In this document: one piece after another, positions 38,937-64,000 of the stretch
Layout of the letters: the number at the start of each line of letters is the position of its first letter
Numbering within the stretch: the first letter of the stretch is position 1
IMG/VR virus record: IMGVR_UViG_3300031952_000001
Coordinates: 1-64,000 of that record
Strand: one strand, 5' to 3'
From: a virus
DNA: 64,000 nt
Position numbers and translations under genes: made by a program
Notes under the pieces: model-generated
Database searches by the model: none
What the model saw: the letters and a program-made list of their open reading frames with translations, nothing else
Told to the model about the DNA's origin: nothing

Positions 38937-38964
38937 TTGACAGCCCCCAGGCCATGGTTATGTT
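38937..38964 (+). promoter_or_regulatory. Sigma70-type promoter of the Ser-Asp lipoprotein
   Basis: TTGACA (38937-38942), a 16-base spacer and TATGTT (38959-38964). It begins 10 bases after the regulator's stop codon and would start transcription about 38 bases before ATG 39009. A private promoter for a single host-type gene is the classic layout of a phage moron. Confidence 0.6.
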
Positions 38965-39008
38965 ACTGGTTGCCAGGAGGGATCTGGCTGAACAAAGGGA
39001 GGTTCGAG

Positions 39009-39494
39009 ATGAAGACGGTTCTGTTGGTCATGGCTCTGGTTCTGTTCGCCGGCTGTGCGGAAGACGGTTCTCTTCTCTTTGATGAGGACGCGGGAGCTGA
39101 CGGCGGGGGTTCCGATTCGGACTCCGATTCCGACTCGGACTCGGACTCGGACTCGGACTCGGACTCGGACTCGGACTCGGACTCGGACTCGGACTCGGAC
39201 AACGACTGCTCGGACGGTTGCGACAACCTGCCGCTGTCCATTTGCGATGAGTACGGGAACTTGGTTCAGTACAACTCGGGAACCTGTGTCGAGGGGGGGT
39301 GCATCTACGCCTTTGAACTTATCAAGTGCGACTATGGGTGCACGGACGCCGGGTCCGAGGAAGACGACTATTGCACAGAGAACTCGGACACGGATGACTG
39401 CAACCCCGACAGCTGTATGGTGGGGTGCACAGATAATGCTTGTGAGGCGGGGGTGTGCATCGACGGCGAATGCGAGTGTTTTGGCTGTCCCTGA
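39009..39494 (+). CDS. Ser-Asp repeat, Cys-rich lipoprotein (host-derived moron)
   Basis: The product is 161 residues. ATG 39009 gives a short signal peptide ending in the lipobox LFAGC (Cys16), so the mature protein would be a lipid-anchored envelope protein. Residues 35-64 are fifteen Ser-Asp pairs, a flexible spacer. The C-terminus has 16 cysteines in two clusters (for example CSDGCDN, CDYGCTDA, CMVGCTDNACEAGVC), probably disulphide-bonded. This layout of lipobox, SD/TD linker and short Cys-rich domain is common in predicted lipoproteins of Myxococcota and related deltaproteobacteria and is foreign to phage. Possible roles: superinfection exclusion or altered host surface. I favour expression in the infected cell because of the private promoter. 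Confidence 0.7.
   Translation: MKTVLLVMALVLFAGCAEDGSLLFDEDAGADGGGSDSDSDSDSDSDSDSDSDSDSDSDSDSDSDNDCSDGCDNLPLSICDEYGNLVQYNSGTCVEGGCIYAFELIKCDYGCTDAGSEEDDYCTENSDTDDCNPDSCMVGCTDNACEAGVCIDGECECFGCP
39111..39200 (+). repeat. Hexanucleotide repeat encoding (Ser-Asp)15
   Basis: Ninety bases of near-perfect repeats, mainly GACTCG, encode residues 35-64 of the lipoprotein. The first few units vary (TCCGAT, TCGGAC), the rest are almost identical, so length change by slippage is likely and would keep the frame. Confidence 0.9.
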
Positions 39495-40865: not shown

Positions 40866-41080
40866 AGGCGTGGGAACCCGTTTCTGTCATGCGCTATCAG
40901 CTACAACTGACGGCTTGTCCGTCTCCTCCCCGGTTTTCCAGACCGGATCGTTGGAGCGAACTTAGGGGGCGCATGACTCGCCCCATCCTCGCTCAGAGCT
41001 TGCCGAGCGAGGATACCGCGCAACCGGATGTTGTGCGCGGCGTTGAGATCAGCATGAAGGCTGTGCCCGCAGGCCTTGCA
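40866..41080 (-). ncRNA. Candidate omega-RNA region at the tnpB 3' end
   Basis: TnpB nucleases use a guide RNA transcribed from the 3' end of their own gene and the right end of the element. By that rule the scaffold would cover the last 150-200 bases of tnpB and run out past the stop at 40901 on the minus strand, with the guide taken from the flank beyond. A five-pair stem (GACGG/CCGTC, 40909-40923) lies just inside the stop. Placement is by family knowledge only. Confidence 0.3.
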
Positions 41081-42103
41081 GAGGAAGAGGTTGCCTTGGC
41101 GGTTGGAGGCTTCAGTGTGACCGCATCGAGAGCACCCCTGGCTGGTGTACCGGGGGTCGATCCCCACTACTACCATTCCGAGCCCTTCAGCTTTGTAGGT
41201 GATGAACTTTCGGAGCTGACCGTAGGCCCAACGTCCAATTTCTCGGCGTTGAACTTTGCGGAGCCGGCGATTCCGGATACCTTCGAGGTCTTCGATGGCG
41301 ATCACAGGGCATCCTGTCCTCTCGGCGAAGGTGACCACTGCCTTGCCGACCTCGTGATTGACTGCTCGCATGAATCGCGCCTCTCGGCCAGACAGCCGTT
41401 TGAGGACCTTAGCGACGGAGCGCGTCGGGTGCTCTGCCTTTCTCTTTTGGAGAGACGCGCGAACATTCGAGTATCGATCACGAAGATGCTTGGTGTGCCC
41501 ACCCTTGCGCATCCAGTGGCGTTTGCCATCTGTGGCGCAGGCGAGGACGTTGATGCCGCGGTCTACGCCGATGACGGCGTCGTTCGGGGCTGTTCTTTGT
41601 TCAACCTCCTTCTTGAAGCTGAGGGTCAGGAAAACGTGCTTCCTGGACACCGAGAGGCGACCATCCCCAAGATTCCAGTTGTTCAACTTGTCTTCGAGGT
41701 CTGGAGGTCCCTGGAAGGGAACTGCCTTGAAACGTCCGTCGACCGTCCAGATAGAGAGTCCGGATGCGCGCAGGGAGACGTCGCGCCCGCGTGTCCCTCC
41801 TTGCAGTATGACGGCTTGTTTTCGGAATTGGCAAGGGGCTTTGGGGCTGCGCTTGTTAGAACGGATGGCCGCATACTCACTGGCGACATGTCGTATGCAG
41901 GAGCCAGCAAGTTGGGCAGACAAACCGACTTCCTTAGCGGGTCTGTAAGCCAATTTTTGAAGTCGAATGGCATTCGACAAACAGCCGTTTTCAAAAGCGA
42001 TCCTGCTCACGAGGTTGCAGGCTTCGGTCCAAGTATTAAGTGTTCGAACAGCAGCTTCTCGGGGCAGGTTGATTTTGATTTTGACTGTTCTCGCTATTTC
42101 CAT
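40901..42103 (-). CDS. tnpB: TnpB RNA-guided nuclease
   Basis: The product is 400 residues from ATG at 42103; a longer reading frame exists but the family starts with a short strand like MEIARTVKIKINLP, as here. The three RuvC pieces are visible: VIGVDRGINVLA (Asp), VIAIEDLEGI (Glu) and HADLNAAHNI (Asp), and between the last two the four-cysteine zinc finger CSRCGH...CKACGH. All three catalytic acids are present, so the enzyme should be active. TnpB cuts DNA under omega-RNA guidance and helps its element persist. The minus-strand promoter at 42142-42114 would give a nearly leaderless mRNA. Transcription would oppose the dominant direction of the phage and could form antisense RNA to the exonuclease leader. 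Confidence 0.85.
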   Translation of the reverse strand: MEIARTVKIKINLPREAAVRTLNTWTEACNLVSRIAFENGCLSNAIRLQKLAYRPAKEVGLSAQLAGSCIRHVASEYAAIRSNKRSPKAPCQFRKQAVILQGGTRGRDVSLRASGLSIWTVDGRFKAVPFQGPPDLEDKLNNWNLGDGRLSVSRKHVFLTLSFKKEVEQRTAPNDAVIGVDRGINVLACATDGKRHWMRKGGHTKHLRDRYSNVRASLQKRKAEHPTRSVAKVLKRLSGREARFMRAVNHEVGKAVVTFAERTGCPVIAIEDLEGIRNRRLRKVQRREIGRWAYGQLRKFITYKAEGLGMVVVGIDPRYTSQGCSRCGHTEASNRQGNLFLCKACGHSLHADLNAAHNIRLRGILARQALSEDGASHAPPKFAPTIRSGKPGRRRTSRQL

Positions 42104-42113
42104 CACATCCCCA

Positions 42114-42142
42114 AGTCTAATCATTCTGTCGGAATTTGTCAA
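42114..42142 (-). promoter_or_regulatory. Sigma70-type promoter of tnpB
   Basis: On the minus strand TTGACA (42142-42137), a 17-base spacer and TAGACT (42119-42114). The expected start is near 42107, four bases before the tnpB ATG, so the message has almost no leader. Confidence 0.6.
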
Positions 42143-42163
42143 GTGGGCTTTTTTCCGGTTGAC
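42138..42163. repeat. Imperfect palindrome at the upstream end of the TnpB element
   Basis: GTCAA (42138-42142) pairs with TTGAC (42159-42163); a further GTGG/CCGG part extends the stem with one mismatch and one G-T pair around an eight-base loop GCTTTTTT. It overlaps the -35 box of tnpB and ends eleven bases before the exonuclease ATG. It may be the left-end hairpin of the element; the T-run could also help terminate + strand transcripts. Confidence 0.4.
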
Positions 42164-42173
42164 AGGATTCAGC

Positions 42174-43721
42174 ATGCCTAGAGTTTTACTTATAGATGGA
42201 AATCCTTTCCTCTGGCGTGCTGCGCACTCCAGTCCGATGGAGATGGTCGCGAACAAGATCCTGACCTACATCTTCGAGGTCTTGGGCCAGTTCACCCCCG
42301 ACGATATGATCATCTGCTGGGACCGCGGAAAGTCGCGGTGGCGCAGCGAGCTGTACGAGGACTACAAGGCCCACCGCCTCCAGCAGAAGAGGGACAGCGA
42401 CCTGGACCTCGAAGCTCTCAACGAGCAGGGGATCCTCGTACAGCGCTACTTGACCTCGGTCGGGGTTCGCCAGGTGTTGGTCTCCGGCGTCGAGGCGGAC
42501 GACACCCTCGCCTGGCTGTCGGACCACTTCAAGAGCCTCCCCGGGGACTGGCACATCGTGCTCGTGACCGGGGACCGGGACTTGTGGCAGCTCGTCGACT
42601 TCAAGCTCAACGTCTGGGACCACCAGCGCCAGCTCCTCGTCACCCCGGGGGTCGTCGAGGAGGACCTCGGGGTGCCTCCGGACAGGATCGCCGACTTCAA
42701 GGCTCTCGTCGGGGACCCCTCCGACAACCTTCCCGGGGTGAAGCAGGTCGGAGAGAAGACCGCGGCCAAGCTGCTGAAGAAGTTCGGCAGTCTCGGGGAG
42801 ATCCTGAGTCTTGAGAACGTGGAGTTCTTGGAGAAGCGGAAGACGACCGCCCGGGTCCTCCCTGAGGGTGAATTCGTCGCGGAAATGTACCGCCTCGTGA
42901 AGCTGCCGACCTTGCGGGAGGCCGCCGAGTGCCTTTCGAAGGAGGAGCATGATCTTCTCGTCGAAAACCTCACGGTTCCGCTGTCGAGGGACGCCTTCCG
43001 GTCGCAGGTGTTGTCGGAGCGGATCGGCCCTACGTTCCTCACGAGCGTAGGGCGGCTCCCAGCCTACTCTTCGGACCTGACGGGCATGGTGGCGTGCATG
43101 GATCAGAACAGCGGTCAGAATCGGTCCTGGGCCTCCCTGGGGGAGGTCGACTTGGCGATCTCGCAGTGCAACCGGTGCGCCTTGCGGAAGGACTGCGATC
43201 CGGAGGGCCCAACCTACCCCGAGGGCTCGTCCGACCGGCAGATCATGATCCTCGGGAGGAACCCCGGGCTCCAGGAGCGGCGATACGGTCAGCCGTTCTT
43301 CCCTGAGGCTCCTGCCGGCGGTCGGCTGGATCGGTTCTTGGAGGAGGCCGGCATCGACCGGCGGGAGTGCTGGATCACGAACACCTGCAAGTGCTACTCC
43401 CAGGACGACCGCCCGCCGACCTACCCCGAGATCCTGCTCTGCCTGCCGTACCTGAGGGCCGAAATCGACCTCTTGAAGCCCAAGCTGATCATCGCTTTCG
43501 GAAACGAGGCGATGATGGCTGTAACTCCGTACAGGAGCAGGGTCACGAAGCACTGCGGGGAGATCCTGGAAAACCCTGAGGGCCTCATAGGGCCCATCGA
43601 GGCCTACGTCGCCATCAGCCTGCACCCGTCAGCCGCGTGTCGGTCGCCGCAGAACGACAGAGACGTGGAGTACGCTGCCACGGTGGTCCATGACTTTTTA
43701 GCGAAAAGGACGACAAAGTGA
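42174..43721 (+). CDS. 5'-3' exonuclease fused to family-4 uracil-DNA glycosylase
   Basis: The product is 515 residues. ATG 42174 gives the PIN/FEN start MPRVLLIDGNPFLW; AGGA at 42164-42167 is the binding site. Residues 1-290 are a flap exonuclease: VEADDTLAWL (106-115), VTGDRDLWQL (131-140) and the helix-hairpin-helix part GDPSDNLPGVKQVGEKTAAK (180-199). Residues about 325-510 are a family-4 uracil-DNA glycosylase: iron-sulphur cysteines Cys332, Cys335, Cys407 and Cys423, GRNPGLQERRYGQPFF (361-376) as uracil-pocket loop, and SLHPSA (482-487). The fusion would couple primer or flap removal with uracil excision. It opens the replication block. Both domains look complete, although the first pocket motif is GRNPG rather than GEAPG. 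Confidence 0.85.
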   Translation: MPRVLLIDGNPFLWRAAHSSPMEMVANKILTYIFEVLGQFTPDDMIICWDRGKSRWRSELYEDYKAHRLQQKRDSDLDLEALNEQGILVQRYLTSVGVRQVLVSGVEADDTLAWLSDHFKSLPGDWHIVLVTGDRDLWQLVDFKLNVWDHQRQLLVTPGVVEEDLGVPPDRIADFKALVGDPSDNLPGVKQVGEKTAAKLLKKFGSLGEILSLENVEFLEKRKTTARVLPEGEFVAEMYRLVKLPTLREAAECLSKEEHDLLVENLTVPLSRDAFRSQVLSERIGPTFLTSVGRLPAYSSDLTGMVACMDQNSGQNRSWASLGEVDLAISQCNRCALRKDCDPEGPTYPEGSSDRQIMILGRNPGLQERRYGQPFFPEAPAGGRLDRFLEEAGIDRRECWITNTCKCYSQDDRPPTYPEILLCLPYLRAEIDLLKPKLIIAFGNEAMMAVTPYRSRVTKHCGEILENPEGLIGPIEAYVAISLHPSAACRSPQNDRDVEYAATVVHDFLAKRTTK

Positions 43722-44428: not shown

Positions 44429-44859
44429 AAATCATCGCCCAGATAGGCTACCGCAAGATCTCGAACCGCAGCCGGGACGGACAGCTCGTCCAGGTGTGGG
44501 TGAACGACATCGAGTGCTCTTGGGCGACCCTCAAGGAGGGCGGCAGATACATCACCCCTAAAACGGAGTCTGCGAAGGGCGTGTTGTGGTACCTCTGGCA
44601 GGGTCAAGTCGGAAATGAGGATACCATCCGACTTTCCGTCAAGACCTCCATCGCGAAGGTCGGTACTGACGAGAAGCGCACCTTCGACGTTCTGTACGCG
44701 GTGCGGGAGAACGTTGCTGTTCGGGAGATCGTAGTGCCTGGTGTCGGGCACCGCGGGTACCCGTTGCTGAAGGGCCGGCTGGTGGAGATCGCGTCCGTAT
44801 CGGAGCAGGACAAGCGGGCCGCGGATCTCGAAGAGTTTATGGAGCAGGAGGACTTTTGA
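44425..44859 (+). CDS. Hypothetical protein upstream of the SNF2 helicase
   Basis: The product is 144 residues. ATG 44425 overlaps the previous stop. The sequence is basic to neutral with alternating strands (VWVNDIECSWATLKEGGRYI, FDVLYAVRENVAVREIVVPG), no cysteine cluster and an acidic C-terminal tail. It may be a small nucleic-acid or partner-binding protein for the helicase that follows, with which it is translationally coupled. Family not recognised. Confidence 0.5.
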   Translation: MKIIAQIGYRKISNRSRDGQLVQVWVNDIECSWATLKEGGRYITPKTESAKGVLWYLWQGQVGNEDTIRLSVKTSIAKVGTDEKRTFDVLYAVRENVAVREIVVPGVGHRGYPLLKGRLVEIASVSEQDKRAADLEEFMEQEDF

Positions 44860-46667
44860 TTACGATCCTTCTCAAGGACCGTAAGATCTGCGCGCAGCTC
44901 GACATGCGCCATCCGGCGTACACGAACCTGTGTCTGATCATCCAGTCCCTGCTGTCCGCCAGGGCCATCGACGACTGCACCTGGTCGATCTCCTACAACG
45001 ACCTCCAGAGGCTCCGACGCGCTCTGGACTACAGCGGGCTGGTCGAGGGCAGGAACGTCACCGAGGATGCCTTCCAGTTCGTCTCGTGGATTCACTCTCA
45101 GAGGGAGAGGAACGACCAGATCAAGAAGGGGGTCAACAACGAGCACATTCGGGCGATTCTCAACCCGCGCTTGAAGGTCACCCCTTACGAAGACCAGTAC
45201 ACCGGGGTGGCATACGCGGTGAACAACCGCAGGGTGGGCATTTTCGACGACATGGGCTGCGGCAAGAGCTTAGAAGCATTGTCGTCTGTTGTATTTCTGG
45301 GTTCTGCGATTCGTAAGACGCTTCTCGTCAGCCCTTACACTGTTCAGATCGGCTTCGCCCGGGAGATCGCGGAACATACGAACCTGAAAGGGCTCCCGGT
45401 ACCAAGCGGCCGGCAGCAGGCGCTGGAGTTCATCAAGTCGAACATGCACACGTCCTGGGACATCATGATGACCCACCCTGAGAACATCATCGGGACGAAG
45501 AATTCTAGCGTCGGTGGTGAGATCCTGAACCTCATCATGAGCATGACGTGGGACATGATCATCATCGATGAGTTCCACATGTACAAGAACCTGGACGCCA
45601 AGCGGACCCAGTGCATCTTGTCCCTGTTGAACGACACCCGGGACCGTGCGGGAAAGCGGCCCCGGGCCATCGTCATGACTGGAACTCCGATCAGTGAGAG
45701 CCCGATGAATGCCTACGTGGTGCTGAAGGTGCTCTCGTACGACTACATTCCGCACATCACACGCTTCGAGGACCACTTCGTCGTGAAGCAGGAGGTCTCG
45801 TACGGCGAGAAGGGTAAGCACCTCAAGGTCACCGGCTACAAGAATCTCGACGAGCTGAAGGAGCTTCTGGAGGCGGTCTCCATCAGGCGCTCCAAGGAGG
45901 ACATGGTCGGCTTCCCGGATCGGGTTTTCATGATTCGCGACGTCGTGCTTGAAGGCCGGCAGCTCAAGCTCTACCAGGCGCTCTGTGGAGAGGTCATTCG
46001 GGATCTCCCCCAGGACAGCCAGATCAACATGGAACAGCTGTTCAGCTCCAACCGGATGCTCCGTCTCCGTCAGCTCATGAACCATCCTTCGATTCTGGAC
46101 GAGAAGGGGGACTCGGCGAAGTACCAGGGCTGTGATGCCCTCTTGGAGGAGATCTTGGCCGACCCCGAGGCCAAGGTCGTGCTCTGGACGGAGTTCCGTC
46201 CCGCGGTCGACCTGCTGTACGAACGCTACAATGACCTCTATGGGGCTGTGAAAATATACGGAGGTGTGGATAATGTTGCGCTTTTGCGCATCAAGCAGGA
46301 GTTCGAGGAGTCTGAGCGCCCACGGGTAGCCGTCTGCATTCCGGCGAAGGCAGGCACCGGGGTCGACTTCCTGGCGAGGGCCCGTACCGCCATTTATTTG
46401 GACAGACCTCACTCTTTCACGCACTTGAAGCAGTCGTTGGACCGGATTCATCGTCGAGTTGCCGCTGAAAAGAAGACTCGGCTGGATTTTATTCGTTCTA
46501 AGCCTGCTACGGTCATTTTCTTGGATGTGGTCAACTCGATAGACGTGCTGATCCGAGAGAATTCCATTAGAAAACAGAACCTTGTCGATGCCGTGACCGT
46601 GTCAGACGAAAAGTTGATCCGGCTCGGCAGATCGGATATATTGCGGTACCTCGGAAAGGCGGCCTGA
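44856..46667 (+). CDS. SNF2-family (superfamily 2) helicase/translocase
   Basis: The product is 603 residues, starting with TTG at 44856 behind GGAGCAGGAG. Walker A is FDDMGCGKS (130-138), motif II is DEFH (238-241), motif III is VMTGTPISE, and the C-terminal motifs include KAGTGVDFLARA and QSLDRIHR (motif VI). These are SNF2/SWI2 features. Such enzymes translocate on duplex DNA and remodel protein-DNA complexes; phage versions take part in replication-fork handling or recombination. The N-terminal 110 residues are unlike the core and may bind DNA. It lies in a coupled chain with the TSCPD gene before and an unknown gene after. Confidence 0.85.
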   Translation: MITILLKDRKICAQLDMRHPAYTNLCLIIQSLLSARAIDDCTWSISYNDLQRLRRALDYSGLVEGRNVTEDAFQFVSWIHSQRERNDQIKKGVNNEHIRAILNPRLKVTPYEDQYTGVAYAVNNRRVGIFDDMGCGKSLEALSSVVFLGSAIRKTLLVSPYTVQIGFAREIAEHTNLKGLPVPSGRQQALEFIKSNMHTSWDIMMTHPENIIGTKNSSVGGEILNLIMSMTWDMIIIDEFHMYKNLDAKRTQCILSLLNDTRDRAGKRPRAIVMTGTPISESPMNAYVVLKVLSYDYIPHITRFEDHFVVKQEVSYGEKGKHLKVTGYKNLDELKELLEAVSIRRSKEDMVGFPDRVFMIRDVVLEGRQLKLYQALCGEVIRDLPQDSQINMEQLFSSNRMLRLRQLMNHPSILDEKGDSAKYQGCDALLEEILADPEAKVVLWTEFRPAVDLLYERYNDLYGAVKIYGGVDNVALLRIKQEFEESERPRVAVCIPAKAGTGVDFLARARTAIYLDRPHSFTHLKQSLDRIHRRVAAEKKTRLDFIRSKPATVIFLDVVNSIDVLIRENSIRKQNLVDAVTVSDEKLIRLGRSDILRYLGKAA

Positions 46668-47824
46668 TGGACTTTCTGGAGCAGATGGTCAAGGCGGAGC
46701 TGACGGGAGGATCCGTACCCCCGCCGGAAGACCAACACCTAAAGCCGATTTATTTCAATAGTGAAAACCAGCTGAATCCGGAGCCGTTCTACGGTGAGAT
46801 CATCGACCTCTCTCGGCAGATCTGGACGTACCGCGGGTACACGGGTTTTGCGAAGCCTTGGCATGACCAGGACCCTTACAAGTTTTTGAGGATCCGCAAG
46901 GAGGGCTTTCGGGGCTTCTTCCGCTCGATGGAAGAGGAGGACATCAACTGGAAGAGCTACCTCTTTCTGTTGTTCTTGATGACACCTTACGAGATGTGGG
47001 AGCGTCCAACTCTCCTGGTCTTGCAGAACAGTCGATTGAGCTGGTTTCGGAAGCTCCGGGCTGCTGCCGGCTCCAAGGAGGCTTTCGACAAGGTCGCCTC
47101 CTTCATGACGGAGTTCGTCAGCCTCCAGGTCCAGAGGGGCAAGGACCTTGGGATGCCTTTGGGCATTTTCGTAGCGCCTGATCTGACTTTTAAAGGACCC
47201 AAGAGCAGGAAGGGCGCTCCTCCAAAACACCTCGTGCTCTACCATCATGTACTGGACAGAATTTCAGTCCTGACGAACCTCGGCGTAGATCCCCTAGAGT
47301 GGCTCCAGGTGAAGTACGCGCGCTGCGTGGAATTCAAAAAGGACCAGGGCTCCATTGTTCCGATTGCCATGATCTTGAACATCAACTCCCTGGATCCGGA
47401 CCCGGAGGACATCAAGACCATGCAGCGGGACCCTTGGAGGGGGGTTCGCAAGTTCCTGGGTCTCTCTGCACAGTGCCAGCTCAAGGACAACTGCCTCCCG
47501 AAGGGCTGGAGACCTTCCTCGGAGGATGCTGACGACGCTTCCAGGATTTACTGCATCACCGCGGACGGGTACTACTACCGCGAAGATGGCACCCAGCGCC
47601 GGGGACGCCGGCACTACGCCCAGAACAAGTACCTGAACATCTGCTGCGTCCCCTCGAACTTCCAGCTCTTCCAGAAGCAGTGGGACGATCCCCGGCTGCT
47701 GTCCGCGGAGCCCACCTGGGAGGAGTATTCGAAGTGGGGTCTCTACTTGGGACTCTGGAACGAGAGTGGGACCAACATCTCGAAGTACACCGGTCTGAAA
47801 GACGTGAAGTGGAGGAAGCCATGA
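46667..47824 (+). CDS. Hypothetical protein between SNF2 helicase and Nudix gene
   Basis: The product is 385 residues, start and stop both overlapping the neighbours. Aromatic and charged residues dominate, with a helical middle part (KEAFDKVASFMTEFVSLQV) and a Tyr/Cys-rich end (IYCITADGYYYREDG, NKYLNICC). No nuclease, polymerase or zinc motif with standard spacing is visible. Strong coupling to the helicase suggests a shared pathway. Function unknown. Confidence 0.55.
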   Translation: MDFLEQMVKAELTGGSVPPPEDQHLKPIYFNSENQLNPEPFYGEIIDLSRQIWTYRGYTGFAKPWHDQDPYKFLRIRKEGFRGFFRSMEEEDINWKSYLFLLFLMTPYEMWERPTLLVLQNSRLSWFRKLRAAAGSKEAFDKVASFMTEFVSLQVQRGKDLGMPLGIFVAPDLTFKGPKSRKGAPPKHLVLYHHVLDRISVLTNLGVDPLEWLQVKYARCVEFKKDQGSIVPIAMILNINSLDPDPEDIKTMQRDPWRGVRKFLGLSAQCQLKDNCLPKGWRPSSEDADDASRIYCITADGYYYREDGTQRRGRRHYAQNKYLNICCVPSNFQLFQKQWDDPRLLSAEPTWEEYSKWGLYLGLWNESGTNISKYTGLKDVKWRKP

Positions 47825-48516
47825 GCGAAGAGGTCTGGGTCGTTCCCGAAGTGGCTTTGGCCTTTGTTCAAGGGTTGCAGTTCCCCCCGAAGCCCGAGTT
47901 CGCAGGGTTCGCGCAGTGCGATAACAGCATCCGCTGCTTCTGGACCACTCTGAAGAAGGCCTGCTTCACACCGCGCTCCTTGGCGGAGACTGACACGACG
48001 CACAAGCAGGTCATCCCCTATACGGTGGTCACCTCTGAAGGGCGCTATCTGTCCTACGAGCGGTCCGGTGGGAACGAGGCGCGGCTGGACAAGAAGTTTT
48101 CGATAGGCGTCGGTGGGCACATCAACCCAGAGGATGAGCTGACCAATTGGAAGAGGGTCGTGTTCTTCTCGGCTATGCGGGAGATCGATGAGGAGCTGTG
48201 CACTCTGGAGAACAACCGACGCTTTCCGGCCAGCTGGGCTGTGTACGACCAGCTGATGATCAAGGGGATCCTCTACGACGACTCTGACGAGGTCGGGCGC
48301 GTGCACGTCGGGGTGGTCCTACATGCTGACGTCAAGCCGGAGGTGGCGAAGCTCTTTCAGATGATCTCCGAGGGCAAGAACCTGACGTGGATGACGCCCG
48401 AGGAACTGCGGGCCTTGGGGGAGCGCCTGGAGGGGTGGTCGAGGAAATCGTTGAGGGCGCTCGAAGCCGGCGCGGTGGGGTGCTCGACCTCGCTGAGAGA
48501 TCTTTCTGAAGGATGA
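47821..48516 (+). CDS. Nudix hydrolase-like protein
   Basis: The product is 231 residues. ATG 47821 overlaps the previous stop. The Nudix box is seen at about residues 100-128: GVGGHINPEDEL, then SAMREIDEEL, which matches G-x5-E-x7-REUxEE with a longer gap. Nudix enzymes hydrolyse nucleoside diphosphate derivatives; roles in phages include dNTP pool cleaning and ADP-ribose or RNA cap turnover. The N-terminal region with two cysteines is unusual. It overlaps the loader gene that follows. Confidence 0.7.
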   Translation: MSEEVWVVPEVALAFVQGLQFPPKPEFAGFAQCDNSIRCFWTTLKKACFTPRSLAETDTTHKQVIPYTVVTSEGRYLSYERSGGNEARLDKKFSIGVGGHINPEDELTNWKRVVFFSAMREIDEELCTLENNRRFPASWAVYDQLMIKGILYDDSDEVGRVHVGVVLHADVKPEVAKLFQMISEGKNLTWMTPEELRALGERLEGWSRKSLRALEAGAVGCSTSLRDLSEG

Positions 48517-49259
48517 GTGACTGGTCTCCATTGAAGGCGCGGATCCAGGGCAGCTGTCCTGTGTGCTCCGGTACGGGTTTCGTCGGTGACGAGCTGTGCA
48601 CCTGCGCCATTAAGTTCCGAGTGTATAACCGGATGACGAAGGGGGGCTTCCACGAGGCGACTCTGGACCTTGTGAGTTCTCCGGAGTATCGGTGGCCTCT
48701 CATCGAGCAGGGTGCTGCTGAGCTGACCTACTTCGTGGGCAACCCCTTCGAGGTCCTGTCTCACGGTCTGGGTCTGTACCTGTTCTCGAAGGAGAACGGC
48801 CGCGGGAAGACGACGTTGGCGCACTACCTCGTGTACATGCTCTTGTGGGAGTTGTCGAAGACCGAGAACTATAGCCCGGATCGGACCTACTCTTTCGAGA
48901 ACATGCACGAGATGTGTGAGAAGGAGCGCCGGGGCTGGGATGACGAGACCTGGAAGTCGACGATCTTGGTGATCGACGACATCGGGACCGAGTCGCGGAG
49001 TGTGCAGTGGAAGAAGGACATCGCGCTCACGATGATGCACCGGATACTGCACTTCCGGCAGGACTACAGGCTCCCAACGATCTTCACCTCGAACTACGCG
49101 CCGAGCAGCGTCTCATCCTTCTACGAGGGGGTGCTTGATTCCGTGCTGGAGATCCGACCTGACGGCGTGATCGGGGGTCGCTCCCTGCGCCAGGTCGAGG
49201 TCGGCGGTGGTGAAGACTATCGGTTACAGCAAGGCGATCAAGGCGGGTGGCCGGTTTGA
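48513..49259 (+). CDS. DnaC/IstB-like helicase loader ATPase
   Basis: The product is 248 residues. The N-terminus has a CPVCSGTGF...CTC zinc-like site (15-32). Walker A is ENGRGKTT (94-101), and Walker B is ILVIDDIG (about 151-158), followed by sensor-type phrases LPTIFTSNYAP and a trailing GGRSLRQVEV. This is the AAA+ core of DnaC/DnaI-type loaders that place the replicative helicase on DNA. The next gene encodes a DnaB-like helicase, which fits exactly. Overlaps both neighbours. Confidence 0.85.
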   Translation: MSDWSPLKARIQGSCPVCSGTGFVGDELCTCAIKFRVYNRMTKGGFHEATLDLVSSPEYRWPLIEQGAAELTYFVGNPFEVLSHGLGLYLFSKENGRGKTTLAHYLVYMLLWELSKTENYSPDRTYSFENMHEMCEKERRGWDDETWKSTILVIDDIGTESRSVQWKKDIALTMMHRILHFRQDYRLPTIFTSNYAPSSVSSFYEGVLDSVLEIRPDGVIGGRSLRQVEVGGGEDYRLQQGDQGGWPV

Positions 49260-50623
49260 AGATCGATGTCAAAATCGAGGCCGAGTTCCTCGCCGCCGCG
49301 GTCCAGAAGCCGGGCATGATCGATCCTGACGTTCTGGCGGTAGTGGAGCCCGAGCACTTCCAGATCCCATCCTACAAGTGGCTGGTGAAGCTCCTGAAGG
49401 ACCGGAAGTGGAAGCCTCCTGTGTGGGACTTTCTCGATCAGGAGCTGCTCTCGGTCAAGGACCCTGAGGAGCTGAACAAGTACCGTGCCCAGCTGTGGTA
49501 TCTGTACACACTCCCACTCACGTTCCTGGAGGACGCTACTGAAAAGTTCCGGGCGTACGTTTCGTTCTGCATCATCAATTCGACGGCGCACGCGGCCTTC
49601 GAGGGGTTCTCGCAGACCCCTCGTGTGGACTACCTTTTGGAGGCCCTCGGGAAGGGGGTCCTGGAGGCCCGGAACGTTGTTCAAGGGCGAAAGCTGCGGG
49701 TCGTCGACTACGCCGACAACTACTCCGAGCGCATGTCCCGTCGGAGGGTGGCGCGCGACAACCCCAACCTGAACCCGCGGTTGATGACGGGGATCCGTGG
49801 GCTCGATGTGCAGTTTGTCATCAAGGCCCCCATGGTGTGCGACTTCATTGCCCCCTTCAAGCGGTACAAATCGATCTTCCTGAACGCCATGGGCTACGCG
49901 CTCCTGCTCCAGGGCTTCAACGTGCTCCACGTCACCTATGAGAACTCCGAGGAGATGACGATGGGCAGGTACGACGCGATGTTCAGTGAGCTGAACTACC
50001 AGCGCATCTCGAACCTGCTGCTCACTCAGGAGGAGAAGGACAACCTTGATCGGACCTTCGCGTGGATGAAGACCTGGGGTAACCGGCTGAAGATCGTGAA
50101 GGCGACCGCGGAGGAGACCACCGTGGCAGAGGTTGAGGTAGAGGTCGAGCGCTTCCGAGATCAAGAGGGGTGGTCTCCGGATGTCGAGATCTGGGACTAC
50201 TTGAACATCATCGCTCCCAGCGTCCGGTTCAAAGGCGAGGAGCGGCGCGAGCAGAAGCAGATCGTTTGGGACCTGAAGAGGCACGCAGAGAAGTTCAACA
50301 TTGCGATCTTCGAAGCGAGCCAGGCGAACATGGCCGGCGTGAAGGCTGACCGCCTCTCCCTGGAGCACCGCGGCCTGAGCATCGACATCTCCAGGGCACT
50401 GGACCTTTGTATAGCTATCGATCAGACGGACGACGAGCGTGATGAGGGGATCATCATCTTGAGCCCGCAGTTCGCGCGAGACGGATCGATCACGATCCCC
50501 GAGATCGTTCTCGATGCCGATCTGGCGCGGATGTCCATCTCCCGGGAACTGCACCGGTTGTGGGAACACGCTGCCAAGATCAATCCTTTCGTCGTTGACA
50601 AACCAGAGGTGCCTATAGTATAG
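49247..50623 (+). CDS. DnaB-like replicative helicase with eroded Walker A
   Basis: The product is 458 residues from GTG 49247 (TTG 49256 is an alternative that overlaps the loader's stop). The N-terminal domain (1-110, EAEFLAAAVQKPGMIDPDVL...) and the RecA-type C-terminal core (185-430) follow the DnaB plan. The P-loop position reads APFKRYKS (202-209): Lys and Ser remain, but the glycines of GxxxxGKS are replaced. VTYENSEEM (229-237), EIWDYLNII and SRALDLCIAID follow as Walker B and later motifs. It unwinds DNA at the fork after loading by the preceding protein. The altered P-loop leaves ATP use open. Confidence 0.75.
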   Translation: MAGLKIDVKIEAEFLAAAVQKPGMIDPDVLAVVEPEHFQIPSYKWLVKLLKDRKWKPPVWDFLDQELLSVKDPEELNKYRAQLWYLYTLPLTFLEDATEKFRAYVSFCIINSTAHAAFEGFSQTPRVDYLLEALGKGVLEARNVVQGRKLRVVDYADNYSERMSRRRVARDNPNLNPRLMTGIRGLDVQFVIKAPMVCDFIAPFKRYKSIFLNAMGYALLLQGFNVLHVTYENSEEMTMGRYDAMFSELNYQRISNLLLTQEEKDNLDRTFAWMKTWGNRLKIVKATAEETTVAEVEVEVERFRDQEGWSPDVEIWDYLNIIAPSVRFKGEERREQKQIVWDLKRHAEKFNIAIFEASQANMAGVKADRLSLEHRGLSIDISRALDLCIAIDQTDDERDEGIIILSPQFARDGSITIPEIVLDADLARMSISRELHRLWEHAAKINPFVVDKPEVPIV

Positions 50624-50624
50624 A
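50595..50624 (+). promoter_or_regulatory. Sigma70-type promoter upstream of the primase
   Basis: TTGACA (50595-50600), 18 bases, TATAGA (50619-50624), inside the end of the helicase gene. The expected start is near 50631, 38 bases before ATG 50669. It gives the primase, sigma-like and clamp genes an internal promoter. Confidence 0.45.
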
Positions 50625-50668
50625 ACAAGGCTCTGATACGTGCCTTTTACGTGACTTTGTAGGTGAGA

Positions 50669-51607
50669 ATGGATCCGAGAGACTACATCCTTTCCCGACT
50701 GCCTGGTATGGCGTTCAATTCCTCGGGGCAGATCCATACTAGGTGCCCGTTCCACAACGACAATTCCCCGTCTTTCTCGATCCGAGAGGACGGCGTTTTC
50801 GTGTGCGGGTCCCCGAAGTGCGGTATCCGCGGCTCGTTCGCCTACTTCTACAAGCTGATGGAGCACATCGAGTCGTGGGCGCAGGTCTACAAGGACCTCC
50901 GCCTCACGAACGTGACTCCTGACCTCGAAGAGTTGTTCGCCGAGAAGAAGGGCGAGACGAAGAAATACTGGATTTCCGACTTCCCGCAGCCACCGATGAT
51001 CGAGCCGATCAGGTCCATCAAGTACCTCGCTGACCGCGGTTTAGGACCTGATATTGTGTCCAGGTATGGTCTTTGGTATGGGGTCGGTGGGGCAAGCGCC
51101 GGTATCGCCATCTCGGACTCCATCGTCGCACCTGTCTACGATCTCAACGGGGCCTATGTCACCTTCCAGGTTCGGTACCTCGCGCCCTCGGCTCCGCAGC
51201 GGTGGAAGATGCCGAGCGGTTCTGCGGCTCAGACTATTCTCTACGGCGGGTGGCTGGTAGGTTCGGTGGTCAGCAAGCACCTCTGGATCGTGGAGGGCGC
51301 GAGTGACGTTTGGAAGCTGGCGAGCTTCGGAGCCCAGGCCGTGGGACTCTTCACGAGCAAGGCCTCTGCATCCCAGCTCAACCGAATCCGAGATCTCTGT
51401 GTCTGCCACTCCTTGCAGCCTGTTGTGTGCCTGGACGGGGACGCGCGGTTCGTGAAGGGGGGCAAGGAGATCGATCTCGGTCTGAAGATAGCGAACGAGC
51501 TGGCGGCTTTCGGGCTCGATGCGCTGTTGGTCCATCTGGACAAGGTGGAGGATCCCGGGTCTTTGACATACGACCGGCTCCGAGAGCTGAATGGGGCGCT
51601 GTCTTGA
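50669..51607 (+). CDS. DnaG-like primase
   Basis: The product is 312 residues from ATG 50669 (GTG 50663 possible). Zinc-binding residues Cys26, His29, Cys46 and Cys51 form the CHC2 finger, with SPSFSIREDGVFVCG between. From about residue 190 the TOPRIM fold appears: LWIVEGASDVWKLASFG with the catalytic Glu, VGLFTSKAS, and VVCLDGDA with the Asp. It makes RNA primers for the phage fork. It is about half the length of E. coli DnaG because the C-terminal helicase-interaction domain is absent. The stop overlaps the next TTG start. Confidence 0.85.
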   Translation: MDPRDYILSRLPGMAFNSSGQIHTRCPFHNDNSPSFSIREDGVFVCGSPKCGIRGSFAYFYKLMEHIESWAQVYKDLRLTNVTPDLEELFAEKKGETKKYWISDFPQPPMIEPIRSIKYLADRGLGPDIVSRYGLWYGVGGASAGIAISDSIVAPVYDLNGAYVTFQVRYLAPSAPQRWKMPSGSAAQTILYGGWLVGSVVSKHLWIVEGASDVWKLASFGAQAVGLFTSKASASQLNRIRDLCVCHSLQPVVCLDGDARFVKGGKEIDLGLKIANELAAFGLDALLVHLDKVEDPGSLTYDRLRELNGALS

Positions 51608-52365
51608 AGAGTGCTCTGCAAAAACAGATTTTGACTATCACGGAGGCTCTGAAGCGCGACGATTCTGAGCAGGCGCAGGTTTTCTGCAAGATGGCTCCTT
51701 TCGTTTTCAAGTCGGTGGTCCGGATCGCTCAGATGACCAATACTTCCGAGGAAGACATCCTCGGAGAAGTCCTCTGCGTGTTCTCTGCTGCTTGTGATCT
51801 CTACAAGGCCCCTGTCTACAAGTACCGTGAGTCCTTGTACCAGTGTCGTGGGGAGGAGGGGGGACTACTTCTTCTGGAGACCCCGAAAGGGAACAAGATT
51901 CGAAGGTCTCTGAGAGTGGAGAAGTCGAAGGTCACCGAAGTACGCCGAGCAGAGTTCTTCAACTTCCTTTACAAAAAGATCCAGCAGCAGTGTGTTGATA
52001 TTTTGCGGGGATCTTTCATGTGTAAGAGGGCTGTTTCTACCGAGGTGATCTCTTTGGAGGGTTGCGATGACGGCATGCTCGGTGCGCGGGTTGATTTTTC
52101 CAGCGATCCAGAGAGCCTCTTCTCGGCGGCGCAGATGTACTATGAAATCGTTCCGCAGCTTTCTGATCAGGCACGAAAAGTCTTTGATCTCTTTATAGAG
52201 GGTGCGTTTAAGTCGAACAAGGGTTTGTCGAACAGTCTGCGGATGAGCATGCGCAGCGTCTCGGCGGCGAAGCAGGAAATACTTCGTGCCTACTACCGCA
52301 CGGAGCGCTCTTTCGTTCAGGATTCGGAGTTGCAACCCATCTACCTAACGGCGGGTGACTTTTGA
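51604..52365 (+). CDS. Sigma-70-like RNA polymerase factor
   Basis: The product is 253 residues, starting at TTG 51604 by overlap with the primase stop. Region 2-like helices appear around 45-70 (TSEEDILGEVLCVFSAACDL) and 100-130 (RAEFFNFLYKKIQQQCVDIL), and a region 4-like helix-turn-helix near the C-terminus (LSDQARKVFDLFIEGAFKSN, then NSLRMSMRSVSAAKQEILRA). Similarity to ECF-type sigma factors is by pattern, not strict. A phage sigma would redirect host polymerase to the TTTAAAAAATC/GGTAYNCT promoters before the virion genes. Alternative: a related replication-control protein. Confidence 0.6.
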   Translation: MKSALQKQILTITEALKRDDSEQAQVFCKMAPFVFKSVVRIAQMTNTSEEDILGEVLCVFSAACDLYKAPVYKYRESLYQCRGEEGGLLLLETPKGNKIRRSLRVEKSKVTEVRRAEFFNFLYKKIQQQCVDILRGSFMCKRAVSTEVISLEGCDDGMLGARVDFSSDPESLFSAAQMYYEIVPQLSDQARKVFDLFIEGAFKSNKGLSNSLRMSMRSVSAAKQEILRAYYRTERSFVQDSELQPIYLTAGDF

Positions 52366-53516
52366 TAACGATTCAGGACAACGGCTTCATCGTCGACTAC
52401 CACTTGATGACCGACTTCTGTCGAGCCCTGGAGAAGTGCAACCCCAAGAACGACTACGTCTACCTGTCCTACGATGGCGCGGTTTTCAGCATGTTCTCGC
52501 AGACCGTTACTGCTTCCGTCATCGTGTCTCTCAACGCGACAGGAGGCAAGACCTTTGGTTTCGGTGTCGAGTCGGGGAAGTTTTTGTCCTTGTGGAAGAA
52601 GCTGTATGTGGGCAGCACCATTAAGTTCAAACCTTCCCGGGAGCAGCTCATCATCTCGGAGGACAACATCTCGGTGAAGTTCCCGACGGTACAGCACATC
52701 AAGCACTACAAGTTTCCCGAGATGATCACGGTATTTGGTCCACATGTCGAGGAGCTGACGAAGGCCTTGTCGATTTGTGAGGTCTCCGTTGGCGCGAACA
52801 AGCAGGCTCCGGGGATCCTGATCGACAACACCGCTCCGGGGATGTGCCGGGTGGTTAAGATCGGGAATTACTCCTACCGGATGTGCTCTTGCAGCAAGCA
52901 ATCGTTCGGGGATGTCCGTATCGTCGTTTCGGACGAGTTCTGTTCCGCGGTTTCCGCGCTTTCGAAATGGTCTAAGTCTTCGTCCTTGTTCGGGTCCATC
53001 ACGGCGCTTATGGTGTCTCCGGCCAAGGTCGGAGCTGTGCTGAGCAGCGGCGTCCAGTTCTACATGCCCACCTTGCACGACGCGATCCCGTCGTCCTATG
53101 TGTACGACTTCCGGTTGCTGCCGAACAGCCTGGAGCAGGTCGCTCGTGAGGGGCGTGTCTACACGTTCAGCCAGAAGCGGCTCTCCGAGGTGCTCGATCT
53201 GGTGGCTGCGGTGATCGGGACCGAGGAGTCAATGCTCCTGATGGAGATCGATGGTCTGGCAGCGGCGTCCGGCAATCCAGTGTTCAAGATCAGCGCGAAG
53301 ACCCACGACGGCTGCGAGGTCTCGGAGTTGGTAGAGGCCCTTTCGAAGGGCCCGACGGATCTGGAACCCTTTAGGGTAAACAAGAGTCAGGCGCTCTTGG
53401 CACTCAAGAGCTACGAAGGAAATCTGGTTCTTATCGACCGGCTCAACAACCCCCTGCTCGTCCTGCAAGACGAGTCCGGGAGGGACGTGACGTTCCTCCT
53501 CAAAGCTCCGGCGTGA
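52362..53516 (+). CDS. DNA polymerase sliding clamp (beta-like)
   Basis: The product is 384 residues, close to the 366 of DnaN, starting with TTG 52362 overlapping the sigma-like gene stop. Three domains of similar length can be traced; the last strand pair (FRVNKSQALLALKSYEGNLV, then DRLNNPLLVLQDESG, ending TFLLKAP) resembles the C-terminus of beta clamps, including the conserved NPLLV and terminal hydrophobic-Pro strand. The ring holds the phage polymerase on DNA; a clamp-loader subunit is encoded at 59061. Assignment rests on length, pattern and context. Confidence 0.75.
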   Translation: MITIQDNGFIVDYHLMTDFCRALEKCNPKNDYVYLSYDGAVFSMFSQTVTASVIVSLNATGGKTFGFGVESGKFLSLWKKLYVGSTIKFKPSREQLIISEDNISVKFPTVQHIKHYKFPEMITVFGPHVEELTKALSICEVSVGANKQAPGILIDNTAPGMCRVVKIGNYSYRMCSCSKQSFGDVRIVVSDEFCSAVSALSKWSKSSSLFGSITALMVSPAKVGAVLSSGVQFYMPTLHDAIPSSYVYDFRLLPNSLEQVAREGRVYTFSQKRLSEVLDLVAAVIGTEESMLLMEIDGLAAASGNPVFKISAKTHDGCEVSELVEALSKGPTDLEPFRVNKSQALLALKSYEGNLVLIDRLNNPLLVLQDESGRDVTFLLKAPA

Positions 53517-53527
53517 AAGGTGGTCCC

Positions 53528-54274
53528 ATGGCGAAGGCTAAGGCTAAGGCGAAAGAGAAAGTGAAGACGAAGAAGGAGCAACCGACGGAACCCGTGGTCC
53601 TTGGGCAGAAAGTTGTTCTGGACTCGGAGATCCTCGGGGAGATCAATCGCCACTACTCCGCGCGCCTCGGTGACGAAGTTCTCGGCCGTGAGTGCTTCTC
53701 CGATCCCAAGCTGGACAGCCACATTTGCAGCGTCCGGTCGAAGGTTCCCGGAGGGGATACCTGCAAGTCCTGCGGTGGCATCGAGGGGCGGCCTTGCACT
53801 GTCACCTGCCATGTGCATCATTTCTGCCTGGCGACCTACGCTACCCGGCTGGGCATCGGGGTGACGAAGAAGACCCTGCTCGTGAAGTGGATCAAGCACA
53901 ACATCAGTGAGCTGACCTACGCGGAGCTGTACGATCTCGTGGTGTCCCGCAAGGCTCTTTTGGAGGAGGCGAAACCCGAAGAGGTCCTTGAGCAGCCGAT
54001 CAAGGACCGTGCTCAGACGGATCTGAACCTTCCGGATCCTCCACCGGCCGAGAAGAGGCCTGTGCGCCCCGAAGCACTCATCGACAAGGATGCTCTGGAG
54101 GTGGAGGGCTTGATAACGATGAAGACCGCGGCAGAGATCTTCGGTTGCTCGTACATGAATATGATGGGGCATGTGCGCCGCGGGAACCTCAACACGGTAC
54201 AGAAGTCGGGAGCCACTTTCTTGAAGAAAGAGGAAGTCCTTCAGCTGAAAGAGCGTGTAGGGAAAACCCAGTGA
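53528..54274 (+). CDS. Cys-rich protein with C-terminal excisionase/MerR-like helix-turn-helix
   Basis: The product is 248 residues; ATG 53528 has AAGGTGG before it, and GTG 53513 is rejected. The N-terminus is Lys/Ala-rich. A Cys/His cluster (CSVRSKVPGGDTCKSCGG, CTVTCHVHHFC) may bind zinc at about 66-101. The C-terminus (about 196-245) reads ITMKTAAEIFGCSYMNMMGH and later FLKKEEVLQLKERVG, the helix-turn-helix and wing of excisionase/MerR-type DNA-binding proteins. It could be a replication-origin or regulatory factor. Overlaps the next gene. Confidence 0.6.
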   Translation: MAKAKAKAKEKVKTKKEQPTEPVVLGQKVVLDSEILGEINRHYSARLGDEVLGRECFSDPKLDSHICSVRSKVPGGDTCKSCGGIEGRPCTVTCHVHHFCLATYATRLGIGVTKKTLLVKWIKHNISELTYAELYDLVVSRKALLEEAKPEEVLEQPIKDRAQTDLNLPDPPPAEKRPVRPEALIDKDALEVEGLITMKTAAEIFGCSYMNMMGHVRRGNLNTVQKSGATFLKKEEVLQLKERVGKTQ

Positions 54275-54846
54275 TGAAACCTCTCAGAGTCTCTGAATTC
54301 GGGGACACGAGCGCCCTGGTTGAGGTCTACCAAAAGACGGTGGAGCCCTCCCAGAAGACGTTCTTCGATGTGGTGTGCGCATCGGAGTGCGTTGAGGGGA
54401 CGACTCGCTACCTTTCACCCCTGGTGAGGATCCCCAGCATCCCACATTTGGTCGTTGCGGTCATGGAAGCCATGACCTACATTTCGGATCGGCATAAGGA
54501 GATCCGGGACGCAGACTGCGGACCTCCTGTGCTCCTGGAACAGCCGCAGCGTGTCATTCGGTTCCTCGAAGAGGGACCCTCGGAGGCGTTCCAGCTGAAG
54601 TACAGTGGGATCAAGGAGTTCAAGAGTGGCTCCGTCATTGGGGAGCTTCTGGTCTCCGAGGAAAACGGGACTCAGGTATTCTACGTTTGCTGCTGGAGGG
54701 AGTTCACGAACAACGGTGCTCGGGTGCGGGATTTCTTCATCCAGCAGCGGGATCTCCGAAGCCTCGTCACTGTCCTGATGCGCGCGTGGATCTACTTCCA
54801 GGAACACTGGGGAAGCCACTCTCCAGTGGAAAGCCGCAGGTGGTAG
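54274..54846 (+). CDS. Hypothetical protein upstream of DNA polymerase
   Basis: The product is 190 residues. ATG 54274 overlaps the preceding stop; GTG 54271 is an alternative. It has several hydrophobic strands (FYVCCWREFTNNGARVRDFF) and a helical end (LRSLVTVLMRAWIYFQEHWG). It ends immediately before the polymerase ATG, so translation is coupled. No known family; a polymerase partner is possible by position. Confidence 0.5.
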   Translation: MKPLRVSEFGDTSALVEVYQKTVEPSQKTFFDVVCASECVEGTTRYLSPLVRIPSIPHLVVAVMEAMTYISDRHKEIRDADCGPPVLLEQPQRVIRFLEEGPSEAFQLKYSGIKEFKSGSVIGELLVSEENGTQVFYVCCWREFTNNGARVRDFFIQQRDLRSLVTVLMRAWIYFQEHWGSHSPVESRRW

Positions 54847-57063: not shown

Positions 57064-57085
57064 GGACGCCCGAGGGAGGATCGAG

Positions 57086-58183
57086 ATGCAGAAGCAAAGA
57101 TTGACGGCGCGGGAGGTGGACAAGTTCTTCTCCAAGGAGCGCCCGGTGTTCGTTCGGAACGTTTTCAAGGGCCAGATCAGCATGATGCTGGAGCGGGAAG
57201 GAAGGCCCTTGAGCTTTTTGATACCTCGGGGGGACAACTGGTTGCGGCTGGATTTCCCCTTCGAGGTCCTCAAGAACTCGGTCGACCTCAAGAGGTTCCT
57301 CCTCAAGCCGAACCCCCCGATGCAGCTGTGGCTCGGAAAGAAGGCTCCGAAGGGGTACAAGCTCCAGCAAGCAACCCACTCTTTCGATGTGGTACCAATC
57401 CCCGAGCTTGAAGAGATCACGATGCCCCCGGTGGACCCCAACGTCGTCCACCCTTCACCGGGTAGGGACGCCTTCGGGATCATGACTTTCAACAAGGTCG
57501 TGGAGGCCTTCGCGGAGGAGCACGAGGCGCTCCTCACGCAGATCGACTTCCACCACAGGAGCCTGGAGGTCGCCGAGGCTCGTTTCAACGAGGTGGACCC
57601 CGTCTATGGCGTTCTCGTGTGGTTGAAGGAGAACGTGTTCGACGAAGAGCCGAAGAAGCAGCTCATCCGGAACGCTCTGTTCGGGAAGGACGAGCCTGGC
57701 GTGGGCGAGAAGGCGGACTACACACTGCCGAGGACCTACAGCGCTCTCAAGGAGTGGGTGAAGGTGATCTCGTCGAACGGCAAGTACGCCAACCTCCAGG
57801 AGAGGTTCAAGGCATACAAGGCGGGCGCTCGGAACGGATACAACCCCAAGGAGGAGTCGGTCGAGTCCCTCGGTCTCCATGCCAAGGAGGCTGAGGCCGC
57901 CCCGAAGGCGGCGCACACGCTTCGGTCCGTACCTGAGATGAAGGCTCAGGCTCTTCAGGATCAAGAAGGGGCTCATTTGAAGCGCGCTTTCGACCTGATG
58001 AACGGGGAATCCGATCCGGCTGTCGAGCAGGCAGAAGACGACATCCAGAAGTCCCGTGACATCTCGAAGAAGCTCGTTTGCGACGTTTGCGGATTCGTGG
58101 CGAAGAGTTCGAAGGGCCTCGGGCCCCACAAGGCCAAGGCGCACGGCAAGAAGGCTTCTCGGTCGAAGAGGAAGGGAAGGTAG
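57086..58183 (+). CDS. Replication-region protein with C-terminal C2H2 zinc finger
   Basis: The product is 365 residues, ATG 57086 after GGGAGGA. The N-terminal 80 residues have strands of a possible beta fold (PLSFLIPRGDNWLRLDFPFE), followed by a mainly helical, charged part. Residues about 336-360 are a C2H2 finger (VCDVCG...HKAKAH, CxxC-x12-HxxxxH), then a Lys/Arg-rich tail. This resembles the finger at 39671 but sits at the other end of the chain. It may bind DNA next to the polymerase. Family unknown. Confidence 0.6.
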   Translation: MQKQRLTAREVDKFFSKERPVFVRNVFKGQISMMLEREGRPLSFLIPRGDNWLRLDFPFEVLKNSVDLKRFLLKPNPPMQLWLGKKAPKGYKLQQATHSFDVVPIPELEEITMPPVDPNVVHPSPGRDAFGIMTFNKVVEAFAEEHEALLTQIDFHHRSLEVAEARFNEVDPVYGVLVWLKENVFDEEPKKQLIRNALFGKDEPGVGEKADYTLPRTYSALKEWVKVISSNGKYANLQERFKAYKAGARNGYNPKEESVESLGLHAKEAEAAPKAAHTLRSVPEMKAQALQDQEGAHLKRAFDLMNGESDPAVEQAEDDIQKSRDISKKLVCDVCGFVAKSSKGLGPHKAKAHGKKASRSKRKGR

Positions 58184-58185
58184 CC

Positions 58186-63462: not shown

Positions 63463-63476
63463 GAAGGGGGCCTCTC

Positions 63477-64000
63477 GTGGTGAAGGACAAAGAGAAGAAG
63501 GCCGCGGAATCTGTGGTCGAGCCGGCAGTGGACATTCTCCGCAAGATCCAGGCGGAGAAGGAAAGCCAGGTGTACGGGATCCAGATGCTGGAGGGCACGA
63601 AGATCGAAAACGTGCCACGGTCTTCTTCCGGCATCTTGAGCGTCGACATCGCTCTGGGGGGTGGGTATCCCTTGGGTCGTGTCGTTGAGATCTACGGATC
63701 TGAGGCCTCCGGGAAAACGACCCTCACCCTTCATGCCATCGCAGAGGTGAATCGCAAGGGTGGGACCGCGGCGATCATCGATCTGGAGAACGCCTTGGTC
63801 CCTGCGTACGGGAAGGTGCTGGGTGTCGACTGGTCGAAGACCTTGATCTCGCAACCCGATAACGCAGAGGTCGCGCTGAACCTGGTCGAGCACCTTTGCG
63901 GCCACATGAAGTCGGGCGACATGATCGTCGTGGATTCGGTGGCTGCGCTCACCCCCGAGGCTGAGATGAGCGGGGAGATGGGGGACTCGCACATGGGTCT
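63477..64000 (+). CDS. recA: RecA recombinase, N-terminal part (cut by window end)
   Basis: The first 174 residues are present, starting at GTG 63477 after AGGGGG; GTG 63480 is an alternative. [20 protein letters not shown], Walker [29 protein letters not shown] with the catalytic Glu, ISQPDN and [13 protein letters not shown] lead to EMGDSHMG, all diagnostic of RecA. This is bacterial-type RecA rather than T4 UvsX. The N-terminal 30 residues form a charged extension. It supports recombination-dependent replication with the preceding putative ssDNA-binding protein. Confidence 0.95.

Follow-up and report, generated by a model that had tools for sequence, protein, structure and literature searches.

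A viral gene joining a FEN-type 5' nuclease to an iron-sulphur uracil-DNA glycosylase-like domain with a GRNPG motif

Introduction

Can a single phage protein unite a 5' nuclease with a uracil-DNA glycosylase (UDG) domain, and if so, what is the task of the glycosylase half? UDG domains are known as parts of replication enzymes. Phage PaBG carries one on its polymerase gp205, with a separate 5'-3' exonuclease, gp137 (PMC7412058), and some enterobacteria have a UDG-DnaE protein (PMC3919608). The stretch of DNA analysed here (the window) comprises 64,000 nucleotides of a 211,982-base (212-kb) IMG/VR virus record. From the sequence alone, a first-pass annotation had read one of its genes as a 5'-3' exonuclease fused to a family-4 UDG, an architecture that it regarded as not standard.

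Results

The gene spans positions 42174 to 43721 on the plus strand and encodes 515 amino acids in one uninterrupted frame, from an ATG at 42174 to a stop codon ending at 43721. We rejected a longer version starting at 41967 (584 aa), as its long N-terminal extension recurs in just one of the relatives read, the 95% identical L001, whereas relatives start at a Met aligned with 42174, and an AGGA element (42164–42167) lies 6 nt upstream of this codon. Pfam places 5_3_exonuc_N at residues 4–164 (E 1e-24), 5_3_exonuc at 167–244 (1e-18) and UDG at 350–497 (5e-25). In an AlphaFold model (mean pLDDT 87.5, pTM 0.64) residues 1–298 align to flap endonucleases with Z scores of about 26–28, and residues 320–513 to the Thermus family-4 UDG with a Z score of 23.6. 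Three parts can thus be delimited on the plus strand: a FEN-type 5' nuclease domain (aa 1–295; 42174–43058; PF02739/PF01367, invariant columns and fold), a poorly conserved interdomain linker (aa 296–319; 43059–43130) in a region of partly lower model confidence (pLDDT 57–61 at aa 311–330), and an Fe-S UDG-superfamily domain (aa 320–510; 43131–43703; PF03167, Z 23.6 to 1ui1). One protein with both activities' folds, as first annotated, is therefore confirmed to the exact coordinates by Pfam and by fold. The frame is intact and full-length homologues occur in independent contigs, so that neither a frameshift nor an assembly error accounts for it; the nuclease-UDG fusion is real.

The fusion recurs, full length or nearly so, in about nine other IMG/VR contig lineages, plus one distant case. 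Identity to the window protein falls from 95% (L001) through 62% (L002–L004), 55% (L016, L017, L019), 52% (L005), 51% (L020) and 42% (L006) to 39% (L018). Further fusions emerged from the motif scan described below, namely L110, L121, which ends at the locus edge, and the distant L133. The UDG tree makes L133 the sister of the window clade (84/89), but the nuclease tree leaves it unplaced, so that the fusion may have arisen once or twice. In the window/L001 pair the two halves are under equal purifying selection (dN/dS 0.098 for the nuclease, 0.093 for the UDG part) and are thus maintained to the same degree. Decay of the UDG part, which we considered as well, is ruled out for this pair by these values of about 0.09. 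It is seen in L018 (5992–7443), a full fusion in which the entire motif A loop is gone and HPS has become HPN, although the Fe-S cysteines and the FGNEAM..TPY..HCGEIL region are kept. In L045 (contig G002) a UDG domain stands alone at the same syntenic place, and no 5' nuclease was found in that 170-kb record. L045 nests within the fusion clade (100/94), and a loss of its nuclease part is therefore the best reading.

Outside these metagenomic contigs the architecture appears to be rare. When 50,697 phages and 72,556 plasmids were searched by tblastn, each domain found matches, but no record covered both (80% of the query); a search of the phage records with L133 likewise gave none covering both domains. 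Among the 50 BFVD models listed, none was seen to span the two, and no description of an exonuclease-UDG fusion was found in the literature searched, mostly non-subscription papers. The view that the fusion is not standard is thus borne out across the phage and plasmid records. As for a host origin, a single, pattern-limited scan of genome contigs with the fusion profile returned only Pol I and nuclease matches.

The nuclease half is complete with regard to its catalytic residues. Across eight fusions the carboxylates D8, D50, E107, D109, D110, D134, D136, D181 and D184 never vary, and the features of a FEN, a resolvase-like domain followed by a C-terminal SAM-fold (helix-hairpin) domain, are both present as Pfam domains above cut-off. 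The fold (Z 26–28) and the metal-binding carboxylates are common to phage and bacterial FENs such as T5 D15, M. smegmatis FenA and E. coli ExoIX, which, however, have no glycosylase domain, whereas the window protein bears one at its C-terminus. The phage also encodes a separate PolA (54847–57063, plus strand), the likely partner of the fusion protein. It consists of 3'-5' exonuclease and polymerase domains only and carries no UDG domain, in agreement with the earlier statement that the phage polymerase is devoid of a 5' exonuclease. Since PolA is without such a domain and no PF02739 match other than the fusion was found in the 212-kb record, nor in eight related records, gene content lends good support to the proposal that the fusion makes up for the missing 5' nuclease.

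The glycosylase half is less conventional. Motif A reads GE(A/G)PG in family 4, GEQPG in UdgX, GINPG in MUG and GMNPG in SMUG1, and the Fe-S families of the UDG superfamily are families 4 and 5 (PMC10359453). The fusion contains the cluster cysteines of the family-4 [4Fe-4S] pattern (C332, C335, C407 and C423, invariant in eight fusions), and the family-4 pocket residues E47, F54, N80 and H155 (PMC5387724) correspond to its E368, F375, N403 and H484. N403, the equivalent of the uracil-binding Asn, shares the stretch TNTCKC (aa 402–407; 43377–43394) with the cluster ligand C407, and H484, the equivalent of the catalytic His, opens motif B, HPS (aa 484–486; 43623–43631). The family-4 motif A, on the other hand, is absent. 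In its place the window protein and its viral relatives have GRNPG (aa 361–365; 43254–43268; all three motifs on the plus strand), with R362 and N363 instead of E41 and G42 of Thermus UDGa (reference residues, PMC5387724). The water-placing Asn of motif 3 (N89) is replaced by D412 in the window protein and L001, and is Asn in most other fusions. Apart from motif A and this Asp, the catalytic set of the UDG half is complete. Its score against the NCBIfam family-4 profile TIGR00758 is 99.5 bits, below the cut-off of 125.3, which L140 alone passes among eight other GRNPG proteins. The family-4 label is therefore only approximate: it holds for the Fe-S UDG fold and the pocket residues, but not for motif A or the profile score, and because of the latter two, excision of uracil cannot be taken for granted.

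In both sequence and fold, the UDG half matches family 4 and UdgX best. Thermus thermophilus UDGa (1ui0/1ui1) has in common with it the fold, the four Fe-S cysteines, the base-binding Asn, the motif-1 Glu and Phe and the motif-2 His; differences lie in GRNPG, the Asp at the motif-3 Asn, an acidic residue at position 445, the attached nuclease and the bit score. Mycobacterium smegmatis UdgX (6ail) resembles the fusion in fold (Z about 21), Fe-S ligands and the HPS(S/A)xxR motif B. Its GEQPG and its KRRIH loop with the cross-linking His109 are, however, missing from the fusion, which has CYSQDDRPP in place of the R-loop and hence no cross-linking histidine. In comparison with families 2 and 3, i.e. 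MUG/TDG (GINPG) and SMUG1 (GMNPG), the fusion likewise has Asn after a variable second motif-A residue, with Arg instead of Ile or Met; the window domain has the cluster cysteines and a family-4-like overall sequence.

To see how widespread this motif is, we searched 2.9 million viral contigs with a degenerate DNA pattern encoding G[R/S]NPGxxE(x5)PF. It matched 46 contigs, in 44 of which the second residue is Arg and the protein UDG-like; the two matches with Ser, which the pattern also allowed, are unrelated. We compared 37 distinct GRNPG domains with 11 GE(A/G)PG phage references. Among residues that the pattern does not prescribe, N403 is present in 37/37 GRNPG domains, H484 in all 36 that are readable at this position, and the individual Fe-S cysteines in 35–36 of 37. 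Position 445 is E, D or Q in 36 of the 37 domains and in none of the 11 references. The motif-3 Asn occurs in 19/37 GRNPG domains versus 10/11 references (Fisher p 0.03, uncorrected for relatedness). In cellular genomes the GRNPG pattern found no match among 396 Actinomycetota and 398 Bacillota (794 in two phyla), whereas a control pattern of the same shape, GE-x-PG, matched 32 of 41 Actinomycetota genomes. A cultured candidate, a Moorella phage reached by the GRNPG query, turned out to have GEGPG, and GRNPG in the present sense was not found in the literature text searched, again largely outside subscription journals. Judged from these comparisons, GRNPG marks a virus-enriched set of UDG-like proteins with a predicted non-canonical active site.

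GRNPG domains are mostly standalone proteins of about 190–240 aa. Fusions to PolA are N-terminal in L119 and L146 and C-terminal in L127, and C-terminal fusions to a 5' nuclease are found in the window family and in L133. In the tree GRNPG domains are set apart from the GE(A/G)P references (96/99), except for L119 and L103, an SPO1-type polymerase UDG domain with a degenerate motif A loop. L119 (183–2396, minus strand) is a UDG-PolA protein that has GRNPG, yet groups with the GE(A/G)P polymerase-fused domains. Its placement suggests convergence or recombination at motif A. As L119 also carries E445, it fits a coupled change at positions 362, 363 and 445, and from the known order of the core strands R362 may contact E445.

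Discussion

SPO1-type and PaBG UDG-polymerase fusions and UDG-DnaE have in common with the window protein that a UDG domain sits in a replication enzyme, and that the same modules recur (UDG, 3'-5' exonuclease/PolA and 5' nuclease). The PaBG-type arrangement is the reverse of the one described here, with the UDG on the polymerase and the 5' exonuclease separate, and the polymerase-fused domains examined have GE(A/G)P or a degenerate loop rather than GRNPG. The known kind is thus a UDG joined to a replication enzyme; what is new is the joining to a 5' nuclease and the GRNPG active site.

On balance, we lean slightly towards a replication and repair enzyme in which flap removal is coupled to base excision by a modified glycosylase acting near PolA. 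The N-terminal FEN-type nuclease would supply the removal of 5' flaps and primers that the separate PolA is without, and the Fe-S domain would be a diverged, family-4-like DNA glycosylase of the viral GRNPG group, which would flip out uracil, or a related pyrimidine that is deaminated or modified, and excise it close to lagging-strand or repair sites. N403 would read the base and H484 stabilise the leaving base, while N363, at the position of the catalytic Asn of MUG and SMUG, may help to orient the attacking water. Through the tether, excision would take place beside the nuclease that clears the strand in long-patch repair by PolA. Glycosylase activity, substrate, the roles of R362 and N363 and the coupling to PolA are all putative here. 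This reading is supported by the retention of N403, H484 and the Fe-S cysteines in GRNPG domains and by the repeated fusion to PolA; moreover, the motif-3 Asn is relaxed in the GRNPG group, as would follow if the task of placing the water had passed to N363. We know of no tested precedent for Arg at the UDGa E41 position.

What speaks against a glycosylase is, besides the Asp at motif 3 of the window protein, the loss of motif A in L018 with its HPN for HPS, the degeneracy of L103 and the crippling effect of single changes in Thermus UDGa, where E41Q lowers k2/Km about 900-fold and G42D about 90-fold (PMC5387724). Yet the double mutant E41Q-G42D loses just 5-fold (PMC5387724), so these two motif-A positions can tolerate being changed together; MUG and SMUG1, moreover, have Asn as the second of them. 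The first-pass annotation had gone further and placed base excision, flap removal and gap filling in one pathway. As stated, this is not supported. The 99 ORFs scanned showed neither an AP endonuclease nor a dUTPase, so a full phage-encoded base-excision pathway is only putative, as is the protection against deamination that the annotation also suggested.

A broader proposal, which we advance tentatively and would rate somewhat below an even chance, is that GRNPG proteins form a distinct viral UDG class. Arg-Asn, together with an acidic residue where another core strand ends (position 445), would replace Glu-Gly/Ala and open another catalytic route or substrate, and the repeated joining to both halves of Pol I, polymerase and 5' nuclease, would mean that base excision has been built into phage replication.

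The UDG domain could also be non-cutting. As an Fe-S module that binds DNA or senses damage, it would keep the nuclease, and perhaps PolA, attached to DNA. The poxvirus D4 UDG, for instance, is part of a polymerase processivity factor. We regard such a role as rather unlikely, but it is a serious rival because L018 has lost motif A while keeping the cysteines and the FGNEAM..TPY..HCGEIL region, and because the SPO1-type polymerase domain L103 is degenerate. The Glu-to-Arg change in motif A and the repeated fusion of the same domain to replication enzymes point in the same direction. A pure binding module, however, would need neither H484 nor N403, which both persist in 37 distant and often standalone GRNPG domains; the dN/dS of the UDG part, equal to that of the nuclease, also argues against it.

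Less probable still, the Arg-Asn doublet may have altered the domain so that it acts as a glycosylase, but on another base than uracil (hydroxymethyluracil, a different modified pyrimidine or hypoxanthine), in which case it would rid the phage of host-type or misplaced bases. In families 2 and 3 (MUG/TDG and SMUG1), which have a wider substrate range, motif A reads GxNPG (PMC10359453); SMUG1 removes hydroxymethyluracil (PMC13230825); and GRNPG is conserved as a set. Nevertheless, N403 points to a uracil-like pocket, as does E368, the counterpart of the UDGa residue E47 that keeps thymine out, and the phage encodes ThyX and thymidylate kinase, with no base-modification gene recognised among the families listed for the scanned ORFs. 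Finally, a sequencing or assembly artefact or a frameshift that joined two genes is practically out of the question: only the rarity of the architecture and the lone UDG of L045, itself best read as nuclease loss inside the fusion clade, could be cited for it, whereas the same fusion is found at 95 to 39% identity across several metagenomes, in a single open frame each time.

If flap removal is indeed coupled to base excision in the fusion, a phage lineage has equipped its Okazaki-flap nuclease with a base-excision enzyme, as a counterpart of the UDG-polymerase fusions, and the protein would allow one to ask directly whether glycosylase and flap removal act as a single unit. The Glu-to-Arg change at motif A, paired with Gly-to-Asn and an acidic partner, poses a clean enzymology question, given that single changes cripple the Thermus enzyme.

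Genomic context

Downstream of the fusion gene lies a replication module (44856–60143) with an SNF2-like helicase, a DnaB-like helicase, a CHC2 primase, a clamp-like protein (52362–53516), PolA and a clamp-loader ATPase (59058–60143). Within the PolA gene a Cys-rich insert of ~70 aa (about 56509–56715) separates two DNA_pol_A stretches at about model position 281; related phages show a gap there as well. The start of the fusion gene adjoins a TnpB/IS605 OrfB-like gene on the minus strand (40901–42256) with a Cas12f1-like TNB domain, and a second TnpB-like ORF is located at L009:12409–13593. Further upstream, positions 38937–39494 encode a putative lipoprotein with a long Ser-Asp repeat, and L045 and L047 have similar repeat lipoproteins at about this location. 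At the end of the window, a RecA gene (63476–64000, continuing to G000 position 65795; L008:1–1795) is interrupted after FINQIR by an intein-like insert, which begins with CLPLDSLILRNGALSRLKDLRMGDVV and ends with FLTHN before SKIGVVFGNPEV.
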